Assembly: GCA_034687125.1 (NCBI GenBank)
Contig: JAQGBZ010000053.1
Location: 62,001 to 126,000 of the forward strand
Direction: 5' to 3'
From: Neelides folsomi
Lineage: Eukaryota; Arthropoda; Collembola; Neelipleona; Neelidae
DNA length: 64,000 nucleotides
Positions 13,501 to 62,379 of this stretch are shown piece after piece (the stretch's first letter is position 1; each line of letters begins with the position of its first letter). Below the pieces are notes generated by a model, which ran no database searches, was not told where the DNA came from, and saw only the letters and a list, made by a program, of their open reading frames with translations. The position numbers were made by a program, and so were the translations under genes.

Positions 13501-15810
13501 CACGCTTGCTAAGTCGTCCTATAGGTCCGACAGTGAGGGGAATGGGCCATCAAACACTCAGTTTACTCCACTACTTAAGACATAGGAACAACCATCCAAT
13601 TTTTCCTCCCACTTCCATTTACATCGAGAGATTGAGAAAGGAAAAAGAATTGTTGGATTGAGAGATGAATAATTTTCCTCTTTCCACCCAACAGTGTTTA
13701 CAATAATATTAGGGATACCTTCTGGACGACTGCTACCTTCTGTGTGATCAGAGTTGAAGTAAGAGGTAGCGGAAATTCACGTTTACATGGATGATAAATA
13801 ATATGTATGTTCTTAATTGTACGACCTGCTCTTTGAGCCCTGGCATGGGGATACAAGAAATCACCTATGGTTCATTACTACTGGATTGTATACATATTAA
13901 AAGTACGTGTGTTGCTTGTCGTTTTATTAAAGCGCATATTAATTCCAATTTGAATCGAACTATGGAAAAAAACTTGAGCTGTGGAAAATGTATCTGTTAT
14001 GTTAATCCCAGTTGTTTTCTCATTGATGTGAACTCGTATATATTCTTTTTCTTCCCTTTGTCTCCCATTCCTCCTCACACATTTGGTATTCGGAGAGCAA
14101 ATCAACTCAAAATGAATACAAATTGATGGTTTTTAACTTTTAGCCCTAAAACCTGTTTTGTCCCTCCGCTATCGGATCTCATTCTTCTCCTATTATATGC
14201 ATTTCCACTTTTTACTCCTTTTTTCTTCCCATGTGTGAGGAGGGGGAAAAGCTCTTCTTTTTCTTAATCTCAATAAACTCATCCCAGTTTCCTAATCCCC
14301 ACTGGCCATTTGAGGGCTCCCAATTTCGGGCTTAATTTATAAATTTCCATTCTGCTCCCAAAGCCTTAAAATTTTATATTTTGCTCTCCGTTACACCCGC
14401 TCTAGATAAGTATATAGCCACCTTATATTTAAAAAATACACACAGATGGGCTCCCAACAACTCCCGTTCTCCAATGAAGGTAAAAAAGAGGGGAGAAAAA
14501 GTTCCAGGAGAATTAAACGCGTGGAATCACTGGGTATAAAATTACATGAAGAGAGATACATCGAGTAATTTATGCCTCGTAGAAGACAGTGGCGAGAGAT
14601 ACGGAGCTTAATTTAAGTCCTCGACCCTTAAGACTCAAAAGTATGGAAATGGGAAACGAATGCATTTGATGAGGAGGAACATCTTCTTGGCCTATAAAAT
14701 GAACCATGGTTCTTTTTTTACATATGAGCCAAACGATTCTTTTGATCGTAAAGGGGCAGAGTATAATTTTTATTCCCAGTTTGTGTGAGATTAGGCAGAG
14801 AGTCGTCCAGGGCTCAACAGATGTTTTCCTTTGGGGAGATAGGAAGACTCCTTTAATGTATTTATACGAACGTGGATGAAGCTGAAGGGCTGGCTACTTA
14901 ATTGAGAATTTTATTGTCTCTCCCTGCAAACAAACGAGTGCATTAGGGAGATAAGGGATGAGTTTTCTCAAAACAGGAAATTAAAAGCCCTTGGCCCATT
15001 ATCTTCGACTCCCGTGGAAAATTCCGAAATGCTTCTCTCCATGCAACAAATTTAAATGGGTCTTCCTAAAAAACTGGCCAGTAGGGACAGAGGGAAAAAA
15101 CAAAGAGGCTTTTTCCAATTTTATGTTTATTTCCTACCTTTTATTTTTTTACATTAATTACCTTTACTTTACATACTCGCGCTTTGGGTAAATACTTTCG
15201 CTTTAATCGGGCGGCTCTAATGTAAAGGGCTTTTTCAATTTCAAGTTTTATGGCCGCAGTTGAGGATTTAAGGATTTGAGCTCAAAACATGTTCATAAGA
15301 ATTCCCAACGTAATAAATAGTGAGAGAAATATTGGTTCATTTTTCACGATTCTTGGCTCTGCTCTTGACTTGAAGTCAATTTTCATTATAGGATTTTGAA
15401 AGTAAATCTTCATGGTCGGGCTATTAGAGGAGGGGCTTGACTGAAAGGACGCTCTCAAATAAGCACAGAATCAGAATTAAATTTTGTGGAGTCGTCAGAC
15501 GATTGGAAATGTGTTTATTCGTTACAGACTTCTAATTCTTCCAAACTCACCACTACATAAATTGAGTCCATGAATATGTAATTATCACCCTCCTTCTGCT
15601 TATAAAAACTCTCTTCCACTCTCTATTAGAGATGCAGCCGAGAAGAATTACTCATTATTAGTCAATATTAGTATAACGTACGGCAAATGCTTTCAACAAT
15701 TTTTCAAATTGAGATGAGAATATAATATTCTTACATCTGCATCAATTTAAATATCCAATTAATATTAAAAATAAAAGATAACTCTACTCACCACCAAGTC
15801 CACCAACTAA

Positions 15811-15876
15811 AACTGAGGAAGATTATGAAATGAATATTTATATACCCATCAGCGACGGGATCCAGAACTTTGCTCT
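15811..15876 (-). promoter_or_regulatory. Mirror-image TATA/Inr promoter arm
   Basis: On the - strand TATATAAAT starts at 15844 and TCAGTT, a very good arthropod initiator, has its A at 15814, 30 nt downstream. Upstream there is only one TTCTGGA heat-shock half-site pair (near 15867-15861), separated from the TATA box by a 13-nt segment that the right arm lacks. The left arm also lacks the ATG found in the right arm. It may be a weaker or decayed copy. Confidence 0.5.
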
Positions 15877-15912
15877 TATATAGTATATATTTATTTATAA
15901 TACATAAATAGG

Positions 15913-16024
15913 TAGGAATAAAGTGAAACAAAAGAAATAATATAATATTATAAATATGTAGGAGCAAGGTAAACAAAAGAAATGATAAAAATAGATAATA
16001 GGAGCAAAGTGAAACAATTGAATA
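15913..16024 (+). repeat. Three imperfect direct repeats, TAGGAGCAAAGTGAAACA type
   Basis: Copies begin at 15913, 15959 and 15999, each about 26 nt with the pattern TAGGA-CAAAGTGAAACAAAAGAAAT and a few changes. They fill the centre of the inverted promoter element. A partial inverted copy (GAGCAAAGT) lies in the left arm near 15868-15876 on the - strand. Confidence 0.6.
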
Positions 16025-16026
16025 GA

Positions 16027-16107
16027 CCAATCAGAATCGTTTCCAGAAGGTTCAGAACGTTCTGGTGGGTATATAAAGATTCATTTCATAATACTTCTTG
16101 CAGTTAG
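16027..16107 (+). promoter_or_regulatory. Heat-shock-type promoter (CCAAT, HSE, TATA, Inr)
   Basis: In order: CCAATCAG (16028-16035); alternating TTC/GAA units at 16041, 16046, 16051, 16055 and 16060 (three at exact 5-nt spacing, then two shifted by one base); TATATAAAG starting at 16070; and GCAGTT with a candidate +1 A at 16102, 32 nt downstream of the TATA start. Heat shock factor binds alternating nGAAn pentamers, so this is a classic stress-inducible layout. A short frame (ATG at 16126, eight codons, stop) and a possible donor CTAG|GTAATT at 16158/16159 follow. The promoter points the same way as castor and lies 6.4 kb upstream of castor exon 1. Confidence 0.6.
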
Positions 16108-18372
16108 TTGGTGGACTCGGTGGTGATGAGTAGAGCTATCTTTTATTTATAATACTAGGTAATTGGATAATATCATTTATTATTATTTATTTTTATCATC
16201 AATGAAAATATTTTTATTTTAATTGATTTTACATGTTAAATTGTGCGGATGGCAAATTAAAAAGAGAAAGGATGGTACTACTATCATGGTAGCGAGTAAA
16301 AGCACCAGTTGATAGGTTTGAGAAGTGTTTGTGTGTATCCTAATAACTCGTTTAAGATTCCCCGGAGAGCCGAAATGATGAGAGAAACATAAAAATAGAG
16401 TTGGTTGCATAAATAAAAAGGTAAAAAAGACGGAAACGGGCTTCTTCCACCCAGAGGTGCAAATGCGTGAAATCCGAGCGAATCTATCTGAGAAGTCATC
16501 CGGGCCAGGGAGGCTGAAAGGCTTCCCCTGAGACATGAACAAGCTGTAAGCTGTAATTCCTCAATCTCCTCCCTCTGCATAAAAAGGATGTTTCAAAAGA
16601 GGGTTTTCTTCCAACTTCACCCCAATCCTCGTCTGATGCTCAACCTCTGTGTAAATTGGTGACGAGAGAAGCAATTCTTTGTCTAAATTTAATGAGTCGA
16701 TTTCTCCGTGTCTCTGTGCCTTGTTTCTTCTCCTGGCTCCTCAGTTGGGGAAAAAATCTTCATTTTATTTTAAGAGTTTTTCATTATATTGTACCTTCCC
16801 GTATTTCAATCCCACTTGTCCGCCCTTTTGGCTCCGTTCTTTAGGTATGGGGACTCCATGTGTCCTATATGTATTTAATACATGTAGTGGGACCGAGAGG
16901 TGTGCAGATCCAACGTGGATAATATTTCCCATGTAGGATCTGATACAGGGAGTGATAAGGAAAAACGTAGATTGGCTCTGCTCACAACCGTGGAATTGTG
17001 CTAAGAGAAAAATGCAATCTGGGAGAGGAATGTCGAGAAAGTATTCCGTCTTACCCGAATTTTATTGTGCAAAGGGCAAAGAGTATTTCTCGTTAAAATT
17101 GTGAAAATTGTCGCTTCATTGTGCCAAAGTGTCTATCAACGGAGTCGGGTGAGTGAAAATCGTGTAATACTAATGTTATACAATCCCATGAAAGCACATA
17201 GGGAGATGGGCCGAGAAGGCAATTCAACTCCTTGATTACATTTTACAACTCTCTCTTAATGTTACTTTAATGAGCCTCTTTTGCATGGAGTGGGATAGAG
17301 GAAGGAAGAAAGTAAAAAGATCTGAAAGATTCTCTCTCTTTTTCTCCTCCGTCTTCTCATCTTCCACAGCCGAACACTTTCCTCCTCACTTCCGCTCGTA
17401 TATCTTTTTTCGGTCTTTGGGGCATGAAAAAACGGGAGAGAGATGGAAGACTCCCAATACGAAATGCCTTCAATGACTCGAGTGTGAATTCAACTTGTGT
17501 AATAAGAGGAACAGAGACAAACATTTATTTTCCATCTCTGTGTGTGTATTAGGTTGTTCCACGTAGTTGGGCCCTACACACCTCGAATTTAGAATTGTGA
17601 GTGCCAAAAAACCCCGAGACTTCTTTCCCCATTACGATCCAGGAAATTATTCATCTGTGAAGAGGGAATGGAAATATTTTCTCATTCCAACGTTGAAGGA
17701 AAATACAAACAAAGGGGAATGGAACATTCATTTTAATTTCCGGTTCTTGTTTTTTCCTCTTTTTTATCCTTTGTAATATAGGAAGGTATGTGAGTAATTT
17801 ATATTTCTGTTAATAATATCTAAATTGTATAATGGATAATGGAGTTATTATCCAACCAACGTTCAATGAACAAAAGTCGCCCAATCCCATCATTTTCATT
17901 TTGGACAATTTGTCATTATTTTATATTAAAAGCAAGCATAAATTTAAACTTGCACTGTTATCTTTCTCTAAATTGATGACCCTTTATAAACACTTAAGGC
18001 GTGTGATTGGTGATCGCCCGAATATTTAGATTTGAGAGAGACCCGATTGTTACAATTTACATAATGAGGGAGAGGAAAGGGTTAAAAAGTGGTGTATAGG
18101 CAGATCTGGGGAGTTTTTATTACTTGTTGGGGCCTGGAAGAGCTTGGTGAGAGTTCTTAAAAAGGAAATTATTACGACTTCCTAATCATTTTCAATAGGG
18201 ATATGTTGGCCGTTTTCGTTGGCTGGATTTTCTTGTCCAGACTGCTCGAACCTCGGTGGTTGTAGAATAATAATATAACAATGGGCTCCTCCCAGAGAAC
18301 GAAGAGTGATCTGGCCTAAATCGAACGTTTTTGATTTAAGATAGGGCTTTAACATTATGTTCATCTCTTACC

Positions 18373-22624: not shown

Positions 22625-25600
22625 GTGAGATGATAATTGCTCATATAGAACCCCATACCTTCCCATCCCGACCGAGAGTTGTTTCCATTCGTGTGAAGGA
22701 TGAGTGAGGGCTCGTGAAAATGAAGCAGTCTACTTACAACTCCTGACGACGGAACAAAAAACTCGGAGGAGCACGTGCCATAGCGTGGACGAGGAATTTA
22801 TTATATCCTCATCACTGCTCACTCCGGCTTCTAACGATTCATAATACTAAAGCCTCATCATCCTCATTGTTATAGAACCATCGTTTCAATGTGCGAGAGA
22901 GGCTTTTGAAGATGATGATGACACACTCCCTATAGATCTCTTAACTAAATTTCCTCTACTCGACAAATTCCCCTATAGATTTGACGAGTTGGGAAAATGA
23001 GCATTAATGAGTGAATACGCATCTTTCTTTTTAGCATTAAAGTACAGAATAATAGATCTGTACATATTATGTATTAAAATATGTAGGAATGTCGTAGGAT
23101 TATCTTTATAAGATGGCTGAAAAAGTTATGTAATTTTAATTGAGAATTGTTTGTAAAAGAACCACTAGATTATTAATTTGAATAATCCTTGTTTAATGAA
23201 GAATCTGTTAAGTAAAAGGAGTGATAGGAGGACATGAGTTGGACATAGTTTGGGAATGAATAATAGTTGTTAAAGTTCGGACAGTAGCAATGAAGAAGCT
23301 TAATGAGTTCCCTCATCTCATTGTTTATTCTGTAGAGGGTGAAGGGCCTCAGTGGTTGAGATTTGTGTAGTGGACAGAGGCTTATTTGTCACTTTGTCAC
23401 AAGAAAGACCAATTTGTTTACTTGTTAGGTGTTGACTCCCTCCTCTCTATGCATCCCTAAAGAACACTTACTTATTATTAAATTCCCCCCTTCGGAAAAC
23501 ATCATTCCCTCGTCTTGAAGGCTCGACTTATTTTCCAAGCGAGAAATTTTGAGTGTAATGTGACACTTGGAACATTTGAAATACACGAAACGTCCATCGT
23601 TCCTCAGCTCCCTGAAACAAATGAGGAATTGAGTGGAGATGAGGGAGAGATGAGGAGAGTTTTATGACCGAATCCACCAGACTCGTTTGGGAACGCGATA
23701 CCCCTTCCACCATATCAACTCATACGGATTAAAACACATACAAACATAGAGTTTATATGTTTTTGTATTATGGATGCATTTCTTTGCTGACTGAGAGTAT
23801 AAAGTTCCATTTGCATTTTTCAGGCTGCCCTGTGGTCGACGCTGAGAACAACTTGAACTTGTCTGATGACGATAATACGAGTTGTAGTGCCAGGTTAGTT
23901 AAGATAATTTAATGAGCTTCCTTCGCCAATTCCTTCTCCCGTAAAACTACACTTTACTCGCCGTTTACACTAAAGAAAACATTCGTTTACGACCTAAACT
24001 GACTCTTCTTCCTCACACGCCTCCTTATAAGACTTTTTTACTTCCTTTTTTCCTCAACCAATTCTCAGTAATTCTTTTGACACTAAAGGCCAATTTATTC
24101 TTAATTATGTTCAAGCTTATCAAACTACAAAATTGTTACTTTTTCTCGATTTTTACAAATTATAAAATTTGTATATGTATACCTCAACATTTCGTACATA
24201 GATACCTATCCTACTTATCTAAAATATACTCGAAGGCCATTACAATAATTTAATAAATTGATTAAAAATTAAATGCCACTATAATTTGCCCATTACTTTA
24301 CACAATTTGAATTTTTTTCATTTATGTATCTGCGAGTCTGATACTATGATGTGAGTCTGAACTCTGAAACTGTCAGAGTCAGATTAAAAGTCAGAGTCTG
24401 AATGTATTGCATGTAGGTTTTCCAATTTTCAATACTTTCCTTTGCTTTGCTTATTTGAAGTTATTTGATTTACACATTTAAAAAATGTTAAAATATTAAA
24501 AAAGTTATTTAGGTATGTGCAGTAATAATTTTTATTTTAATTTATAGCGAGATGGGCTGTGACTTAACGTTGAATTTATCAGCAAAGTCATCCTCAGAGG
24601 AATCGTCTCGGAGGAACAAAAGAAAGAATTTTATGCCGCGGAACATCATGGAATACGCGGGGTCAGACGAGGACGAAGAAAATTACAGAAACCACGTTGG
24701 GAAACGTGGAAATCATCCTGTTGGTGTGGGTCGAAGAGATTACTTTTCTCATGGAATCCTCCCCAGTCCCGATGCAGATCTAGGGGAGAATGGACACGAA
24801 GAATTGGAAATGGACTGCGGCGACGAAGATGAGGAGGAAGATTATGACGAAGAGTGTGAGAGGGATAATGGTCCACTTGATTTAAGTGATGTTCAAAATG
24901 GTGAGTTTAACCACAATTTACATTATTACCTACATCGCTCATTGTTGTTTGAGTAAAAATTCCTTTATCTTTCATTCATTTTGGCCAGCCAATTAAGTCA
25001 ACCAATCGTTCATTTACGACTCCTACAAATTCAGTTTCCATTCCATCATGTGCCATTAGAGATAAGGAAAAGGAATCCTTGCATTAAAGGGAGGGATCGG
25101 TAATTCTCGAAACCTGATCTTTTAATCTCCATTATAAAACCACAAATGTCTCTGGGAGTATAAATTAAATTAATTATTGTTATCCCTCCTCATGTTGATT
25201 TATAGACGAGAGGCTAATCAATACCCTCTTGAGATCTTGACTTCGAAGATCACCTCTTTCTCACCAAAAACCTTTAACGAGATGCTCTCAATTGCATTCT
25301 GCACGGAGCATTTTTTTTCAACCACAACACTCAATATTCCATCCTTTTGGAGATTCACCAACAATTTTCCCCATTTGACCCAATATTATAAAAGATGAGG
25401 AATTGAATGGTGGGCGGTGCATTGGGCTTTCAGCCTACAATTCAACATTTCTCATTCCAAGCAGCTTAACCTCAATTAACCTCTCTTAATGGCAAACCAG
25501 ACCAATTGAGGATTTTTTCTCCTTTTCGCCCTTTTGTGTGTTTCAGCAAACAAAGGAAAAGTTCATTTACTCGGCGATTAATTTTGCAAATCTCAGGGCT

Positions 25601-59852: not shown

Positions 59853-62379
59853 TCAATGAACTTAAAATGTAAAGAAAAATTTTGTTAAACGAAACACATT
59901 TTTGACTTTGTTTCGTTAATTTTTATAGCGTTTGTAGAATTGTAATTTAAATGTGATAATTTTATATACATGGTATGATGATGGTTATGGTCATTTTAAA
60001 ATTCTAATAATTAATACAGTAAAATGTAATGTATAAACAATATCCTATAAATTTTAAAATGTAAACGGGAACAAACACTGTTTTAAAGGAAATGATGAAG
60101 TGCCATTAAAAGACAGGTAAATTGACTTTTTAAATATTCAAAGTATTAAAAGAGAAAGGGAGTATAATTTAATTTTTATTATTTTAAAATTATCGTGCTT
60201 ATTCGATTCCAAATACATATAAAATGACTTTTAGTTAATTAATATTTTTTACTTATTTGTACATTTTGTGCCAAATAGTATTACATGTAGGATTTTTTAA
60301 TTTTTTCAACCATTACTGTGTGAAAATTACACATTTTTCTCCTATTTTCTAAATATTCCGAAAATTAAAACTACCATGTTTGTTTCCTTTAAATTCAATT
60401 CTCTTATTTTCTCCTAGTCAAGTTTTAAACCATTTTAAAGGCTTTATTTACACTTTGCTAGTTCTTACCATCATAATTTTTATACCGTTGAATAAATCTT
60501 GAACAATTAGCCTAATTACGAAAAAATTATTAAATAGTGTCTTCATTGCAAAATACGATCATCCGAGTTAAGGAATCGAAGTATTTTTACTTTTTACCAA
60601 TAATATTATTTATTGATTAAATATTTTAACTGAATGTTATTTTTTTAAATTTTATTGTGCCATATACATACATAGTGTTGCTCATAATATTGGTTGGTTT
60701 AATTTATTTTAATTTATAAATGTAATTTGCATGTTAGGTACTATATTTAAAGTTTTGTTATTATAGAATAAATGTGCTAATTATCGACTTTCTTTTATAC
60801 ATAAAATGTATATGTTCTGTTAAAGTTAAATGTTAGTTTACTTAATGTTAGCATATAAAATGACAAAAATGTTAAGTTGTTTAAATAAGTTTAATTATTT
60901 TAATCCGCGAGCATTGCGAACCAATGAATTAAACCCTGTTGTATAGGCAATTTCTATCTTCTCATTGTTCAAATATGTTACAATTATTGTTTTTTGCGTT
61001 ATTTCTGAATTTTTTGGATTATAACAATAATATTAATTGAAATATTTGATAAATAATTGTGTATTTAATATCGATGATCTACCATTTATTGGTCAATGTG
61101 TATGATTGTAAAGAATGTAATAATTATAAATTTTAATTTGGCTCATCATTCAATAAATAATTGTATACGTGAAAAGACTAAATATAATAATCGTAATAAC
61201 AATTCAATGAATTTGATTCAATTTTAGAGGAAACTGACTCGGTATTTAAAATAACATTTTAACTTTGTCAATTTGTAAGTAAAATTAAGTTTAGCAGTTT
61301 TAAACTTTATAATCATTAATATTTAAAGTTTTAAACTCTTTAATGCTAATACTACTTTTTGATAAACTGTAAATTTATATGGTAAATATGTAAGTTTTAA
61401 GACTTTTGGAACAACATCGAAGGAGCAAATGTGATGAAAACGGTTAACATTTTTGTGATTTTTCCAATGTAAAGGAAAAACTTCATCGAATTTTCAATGA
61501 ATTTTGCTTTCATTTTGATTGAGAAGCTTTAAGACATGTCGGCTCCTAAGTTTTAAATAATAGTTTTTCGACTTATTCACGATCTAACATTTTATGATTA
61601 TAAAAAATAGTTTTAAGATAATATGAGTATTACTTTCATTTAATTTTGTATATTTTAAATACTTAAAATATTATAATTAAAGTGTCATTATTCCTATTTT
61701 CCTTTTCAACTTTTAAAACATATATCTAATACAAGAGACCAAAGTTTAATTTTAGGCAGAATTCTTTAATGTGTAAATTAATTACACTGGTTTTTGGATA
61801 TTTTGACAATTGATTTTATTTTTTCTCGGAAATCTCATTCCCTTTGATCAAAATTGAAATGTAAAGACATTATTTTTAAAAGTTAGACATTCCTAAATAG
61901 AAAGACAAAGTAAATTATACGAGACGAAATTAAAGCTTCATCAATTAAGACATTCTAAATTTTCAACTAACTGAAATATGGGATGTTTTTCTGAATAATT
62001 TAACTAAATAACGTTTGTACCATTAACCATATTAAAATGTTTTTACTTTATCTTTTGTTCTTAAGCAAGTGAATTAAAAATCAATACTGTAAATTTTGTT
62101 CTTTATTGTTTGTTCTATTTAATAATGTCTCATAACTCGTCGTTAATGATTTTGTATCGCCAATTATTTTTTAATGTATAGAATGTGTGAACAATTAATG
62201 TGTGCTGAATTAATGAGTTCAGTATAGAATGAATCAAATGTTAAATTAAATCGATTTGAAGATGAGATGATAGTTTCCCATTATAAAGATCTGTTAGACG
62301 GTTCATTTTAGTTTGTATTTATATCATAATTTAATGAAACTGAATAAAAAATAATGTTTATTAAAATCGAGAATGAAAA

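Follow-up and report, generated by a model that had tools for sequence, protein, structure and literature searches.

The window, which is the whole 64-kb stretch of DNA analysed here (C53:62001-126000, within a 75.1 Mb assembly of 840 contigs), contains castor-like zinc-finger exons on its + strand from position 24548 onward, which are tentatively assigned to castor. No Pfam family was found in six castor-like exon frames, and a search of one frame against PDB sequences returned nothing. The first recognised coding exon (24548..24953, + strand, its 3′ end being the end of the open frame) opens at an acceptor AG/CGAG with an ATG at 24552. Upstream of this exon lies an element composed of two inverted arms, identified by repeat finding and BLAST, on either side of a spacer (15896..16017, + strand) in which a 45-nt unit with GGAGCAAAGTGAAACA-like boxes is repeated in tandem 2.8 times. 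The left arm (15752..15852, − strand) is a promoter and leader copy reading to lower coordinates, and the right arm (16062..16169, + strand) is a copy reading towards castor. Elsewhere in the window, positions 60001-62000 are AT-rich (GC 22.7% versus 30-40% in the other 2-kb steps).

The arms represent an inverted duplication. When the window was compared with itself by BLAST, positions 15752-15852 and 16169-16062 paired inversely over 110 columns at 83.6% (E 5e-23), a pairing also recovered by repeat finding, which bears out the inverted pair of ~100 nt arms proposed in the sequence-only reading. In a global alignment, the two arms differ by 7 substitutions over 101 paired columns, of which 94 are identical, and by 6 gap events. 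They form the sole inverted pair in 64 kb at E<1e-6 with starts less than 3 kb apart. The same test on five other stretches (~50 kb in all) detected two more such pairs, one each in L005 and L070, indicating that sizeable inverted repeats also occur elsewhere. The similarity of the arms does not require selection, as a fairly recent duplication or a gene conversion could account for it. The folding energy of the element is -152.7 kcal/mol versus a shuffle mean of -73.5 kcal/mol (100 shuffles, z -13.9); such a strong fold is expected of any inverted repeat of this kind, and a hairpin RNA is a possibility if castor pre-mRNA spans the element.

Each arm contains a TATA box, TATATAAA (16070..16077 on the + strand in the right arm and 15837..15844 on the − strand in the left arm, both by motif scan), and an initiator located by motif scan and arm alignment, namely CAGTT at 16101..16105 (+ strand, predicted +1 at 16102) in the right arm and TCAGTT at 15811..15816 (− strand, predicted +1 at 15814) in the left arm. 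The predicted promoters in both arms point outward. CAGTT lies 31 nt downstream of TATATAAA in the right arm and 29 nt downstream in the left arm, and the distance from the first T of the TATA box to A+1 is 32 and 30 nt, respectively, in agreement with the spacing of 30-32 nt previously noted. However, the correct spacing in both arms had been regarded as double evidence; since the arms are homologous copies, it amounts to one observation, that is, a single event that was copied. The strict combination of TATATAAA and CAGTT (24-36 nt apart) has just two sites in the window, one in each arm, compared with a mean of 0.05 per simulated window (60 Markov samples, with spacings of 28-34 nt), and a looser TATA/Inr consensus has 14 window sites at 24-36 nt versus 4.95 expected at 28-34 nt. 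A leader common to both arms, delimited by genome pattern scans and arm alignment, occupies 16104..16154 on the + strand. Donor-like sequences are present in the right arm at 16123 (GTG/GTGATG) and 16159 (TAG/GTAATT), and the left-arm form is GTG/GTGAGT. A bacterial promoter scan was discarded as inapplicable because the host is a eukaryote.

Additional promoter-type motifs, absent from the sequence-only reading, lie further upstream in the right half of the element. These include an upstream box, TAGGAGCAAAGTGAAACAATTGAA (15999..16022, + strand), which is related to two copies on contig C32, a CCAAT box, CCAATCAG (16027..16034, + strand, by pattern scan), and a perfect three-unit HSE, TTCCAGAAGGTTC, followed by A and then by GAACGTTC, one base out of register (16041..16062, + strand). 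The GGAGCAAAGTGAAACA-like box of the spacer unit also precedes the right CCAAT box. The window has no perfect three-unit HSE other than TTCCAGAAGGTTC at 16041; at least three alternating nGAAn/nTTCn units are present, in the right arm only, with a TATA box and an initiator at the proper distance downstream. About two perfect three-unit HSEs per window are expected by chance in simulated windows, whereas the exact form with an adjoining GAAnnTTC (0-3 nt apart) appeared in none of 60 simulated windows. Scored strictly in register, the HSE at 16041 is ordinary: counting the site itself, its four-unit score (10 of 12) is attained at nine placements in the window and its five-unit score (11 of 15) at 35. 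Moreover, a three-unit HSE 3-30 nt from TATATAAA has 9 matches in the genome versus 10 for the reversed control, and hence an HSE near a TATA box does not rise above background in this genome and, taken alone, proves nothing.

The CCAAT/HSE block is missing from the left arm, and the idea of symmetric twin promoters is therefore not supported. By eye, AAGAGCAAAGT directly joins TCTGG in the left arm, whereas 50 additional nt intervene at this point in the right arm, a placement of the gap that differs from those of the automatic alignments. The dinucleotide GT, a 2-nt microhomology, is found by eye at both ends of this 50-nt block, suggesting a microhomology deletion in the left arm. An upstream-box remnant (15867..15879, − strand) is present in the left arm, which also carries ~13 nt between TCTGG and TGGGTATATAAA that are absent from the right arm.

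Repeat counts from the DNA search of the genome are lower bounds, as common words are skipped, and pattern scans with controls provide firmer evidence. Besides the query and its two arms, the DNA search with 521 nt returned a single match, at C32:177558-177621 (87%, E 4e-14). The whole-genome search for dispersed MITE copies that the sequence-only reading had proposed found the leader only in these two arms: leader stretches of 23 and 27 positions, with up to 3 mismatches, match nothing else in 75.1 Mb (2 hits versus 0 in the control in one scan, and 2 hits versus 2 in the other). For TATATAAANATTCATTTCATAAT, 87 hits with up to 3 mismatches compare with 44 in the control, and only the two arms match without mismatch. 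A high-copy MITE is thus ruled out by copy number, only the two arms being found in these genome searches. A lone surviving small TIR element (MITE-like or foldback), inserted at TA and with promoter-like content that is its own sequence, seems somewhat unlikely. By eye, the ~105-nt arms end in TATCCAATTA/TAATTGGATA, where complementarity falls off, and TA flanks both arm ends as after a Tc1/mariner-type insertion, although TA is palindromic and often arises by chance in AT-rich DNA. Such an origin is also difficult to reconcile with the failure of leader patterns (up to 3 mismatches) and DNA search to detect a further arm copy, with promoters that point outward whereas transposase promoters point inward, and with a C32 relative that has the cassette, not the leader, in common with the element.

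This relative constitutes a second locus of the cassette formed by the upstream box, CCAAT box, and HSE, which recurs only at C32:177427-177621, in two tandem copies. The pattern CCAATCAG...GAACGTTCTGG, covering the CCAAT and HSE portion of the cassette, has three places in the genome versus 0 in the control, once here and twice in tandem at C32, and a narrow CCAAT/HSE pattern has a single genome match, which is this element. The upstream box alone has nine hits (up to 3 mismatches) versus 7 in the control, the best three of which are the element and the two C32 copies; the remaining six look like background. Two more CCAATCA...GAACGTTC places, on C4 and C702 (5 places versus 1 in the control), were set aside as chance; the former lies within a 55-aa frame and the latter, by eye, within a cysteine-protease-like frame. 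The three cassette copies are identical in 46 of 85 alignment columns, and when 346 nt of C32 were used as a query the window was matched over the cassette only (64/346 nt). That the likeness is confined to the cassette is consistent with possible constraint on it; alternatively, the cassette alone could have been duplicated. By eye, the C32 HSEs have no TATATAAA right after them, and no Pfam family was detected at E 0.1 in the eight ORFs of at least 100 aa (0/8) in the 20 kb centred on the C32 cassettes. Several minor features were observed in the same region: CGGGAAGGGG and CCCCTTCCCG, which are mutually complementary, follow the first and second C32 HSE cassettes (L004 1432-1585, by eye), a perfect 33-nt inverted repeat lies ~10 kb from the cassettes (L070 424-615), and another inverted repeat (L005 4786-5883; 78 columns, 75.6%) lies ~4-5 kb from them.

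A profile search of the genome recovered 37 exon matches to PF00012 (HSP70) and 5 to PF00011 (HSP20), the two families searched, none of which (0/37 and 0/5) lies on C53 or C32. No Pfam family was found at E 0.1 in any of the four ORFs of 100 aa or more located within 2.5 kb of the element, and among nine further ORFs (six in the window and three in L069-L071) two have matches below the Pfam cut-off (E 0.05 and 0.033). Rfam returned no match at gathering score in the window. The previous statement that no heat-shock coding sequence follows on either side therefore stands, none being recognised on the contig, and the arrangement that defines a head-to-head hsp pair, with heat-shock coding sequence downstream of both promoters, was not found in terms of HSP70 and HSP20. 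The element was also compared by BLAST with 35 hsp loci (covering 30 of the 37 exon matches to HSP70 and the 5 to HSP20, with flanks of up to ~1.5 kb, a set from which some promoters may be missing). Matches at E<=1 were obtained for 26 of the 35, the best with E 0.001; in each case the best match falls in a part of the element with no more than 11% GC, implying low-complexity likeness only, and an origin as a copy of one of this genome's hsp promoters was rejected on these grounds. The suggested descent from hsp genes is thus not supported for the recovered hsp70 and small-hsp loci, which may not include every promoter, as they share neither leader nor cassette with the element. Upstream of two of the five HSP20 loci (C254 and C323) there is a strong HSE (scores of 11 and 12 of 12) together with TATATAAAA, indicating that the genome makes use of promoters of this type. 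The motif ATGAAATGAA, common to the arms and two small-hsp promoters, was dropped from consideration, as it also occurs in other loci, such as L005, L070, and L071, and twice more in the window.

These results bear on another rather doubtful explanation, in which the element would be the dead remnant of two head-to-head heat-shock genes that have lost their coding parts, with no present transcription. The left arm without an HSE, the HSE-TATA module that is no rarer than in its control (9 versus 10), and the 0 HSP70/HSP20 matches on C53 or C32 would all suit a relic, and a precedent is found in PMC3355041, where an altered Hsp68 gene of a head-to-head pair in D. mojavensis (Hsp68a) is described as having no detected promoter or HSE. 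However, the HSE, TATA box, initiator, and leader are all retained in the right arm, and no coding fragment was recognised.

The relationship of the element to castor should also be considered. The sequence-only reading had placed it in a castor intron; the AG acceptor before the coding exon at ~24548 implies that a 5′ exon lies upstream, which agrees with that placement in part, but the element may be located either in an intron or upstream of the gene. It is very unlikely, though conceivable from the sequence, that the right arm is the castor promoter with a first non-coding exon ~8.4 kb 5′ of the first recognised coding exon, with the left arm acting as an antisense promoter upstream. The right arm lies on castor's strand, the splice acceptor of that coding exon calls for a 5′ exon, and donor-like sites are available at 16123 and 16159; on the other hand, the first donor would yield a first exon of just 21 nt, and the right-arm donor GTGATG is weaker than the left-arm GTGAGT.

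We consider the best explanation, with a probability of roughly 45%, to be an inverted duplication of one HSF-type promoter, with no chaperone gene found attached and a right arm that is plausibly heat-inducible. One Pol II promoter, comprising an upstream box, CCAAT box, HSE, TATA box, initiator, and a leader of ~50 nt, would have been duplicated head to head. The right copy retains the elements needed by an HSF-driven promoter; under stress, HSF would most likely bind 16041-16062, and transcription would then start from ~16102 towards castor, the product being either non-coding RNA or a 5′ exon. The left copy apparently lost its CCAAT/HSE block via a 50-nt microhomology deletion and may now be weak, or dependent on the HSE ~200 bp away. 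The original suggestion of a heat-shock-type promoter pair is thus supported in that CCAAT box, HSE, TATA box, and initiator occur in an inverted pair that is not a high-copy MITE, whereas symmetry and descent from the recovered hsp loci are not supported. If active, the element would represent an HSF target that lacks a chaperone gene, and may provide a route for heat to a neural transcription-factor locus or a source of stress RNA; if dead, it would be a clean case of inverted promoter duplication in which one copy is missing its control site. A more far-reaching version, which we consider unlikely, is a single-copy, protein-less divergent heat-shock promoter giving rise to stress non-coding RNAs or to a heat-inducible 5′ form of castor, with C32 as a second orphan HSF target, so that one of the two targets would lie next to a developmental regulator.

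Comparison with known systems places this inverted promoter duplication in a broader context. In Drosophila, hsr-omega and the 87C1 alpha-beta heat-shock RNAs have a heat-shock promoter without a chaperone gene, as the element would; unlike in those loci, its tandem repeat sits between the promoters. MITE and foldback elements combine small size with long terminal inverted repeats and a TA on either side. The element resembles them in size and inverted arms and has TA at both ends as a possible target-site duplication (palindromic and likely due to chance), but is single copy and has outward promoters. The Drosophila hsp70 genes at 87A7 form a head-to-head pair. Hsp68 genes are likewise arranged head to head in four Drosophila species, according to PMC3355041. 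The element resembles such pairs (hsp70 87A7, Hsp68) in having two very similar divergent heat-shock-type promoters, and differs from them in being flanked by no recognised heat-shock coding sequence and in having an HSE in one arm only. In Caenorhabditis, Helitrons contain HSEs, and HSF-1 and Pol II occupancy is raised on heat shock (PMC6927752). Similar to these, the HSE of the element sits away from classical hsp genes; in contrast to the substantial numbers of HSE-Helitrons described in PMC6927752, there is here one element and one partial relative. Among the listed titles on divergent or inverted heat-shock promoters, none describes a protein-less twin promoter, which does not prove that the literature contains no such description.

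Some additional features of the hsp genes in this genome were observed. An HSP70-like gene in L011 (C361:5834-7794) has two long open frames and ~110 residues before the usual domain start. The longest single match among the 37 HSP70 matches covers 372 of 599 profile positions, and no intronless hsp70 was seen. Two divergent small-hsp genes are located in L052 and L053 (C96:51949-56348), with ~3.9 kb between the matches.
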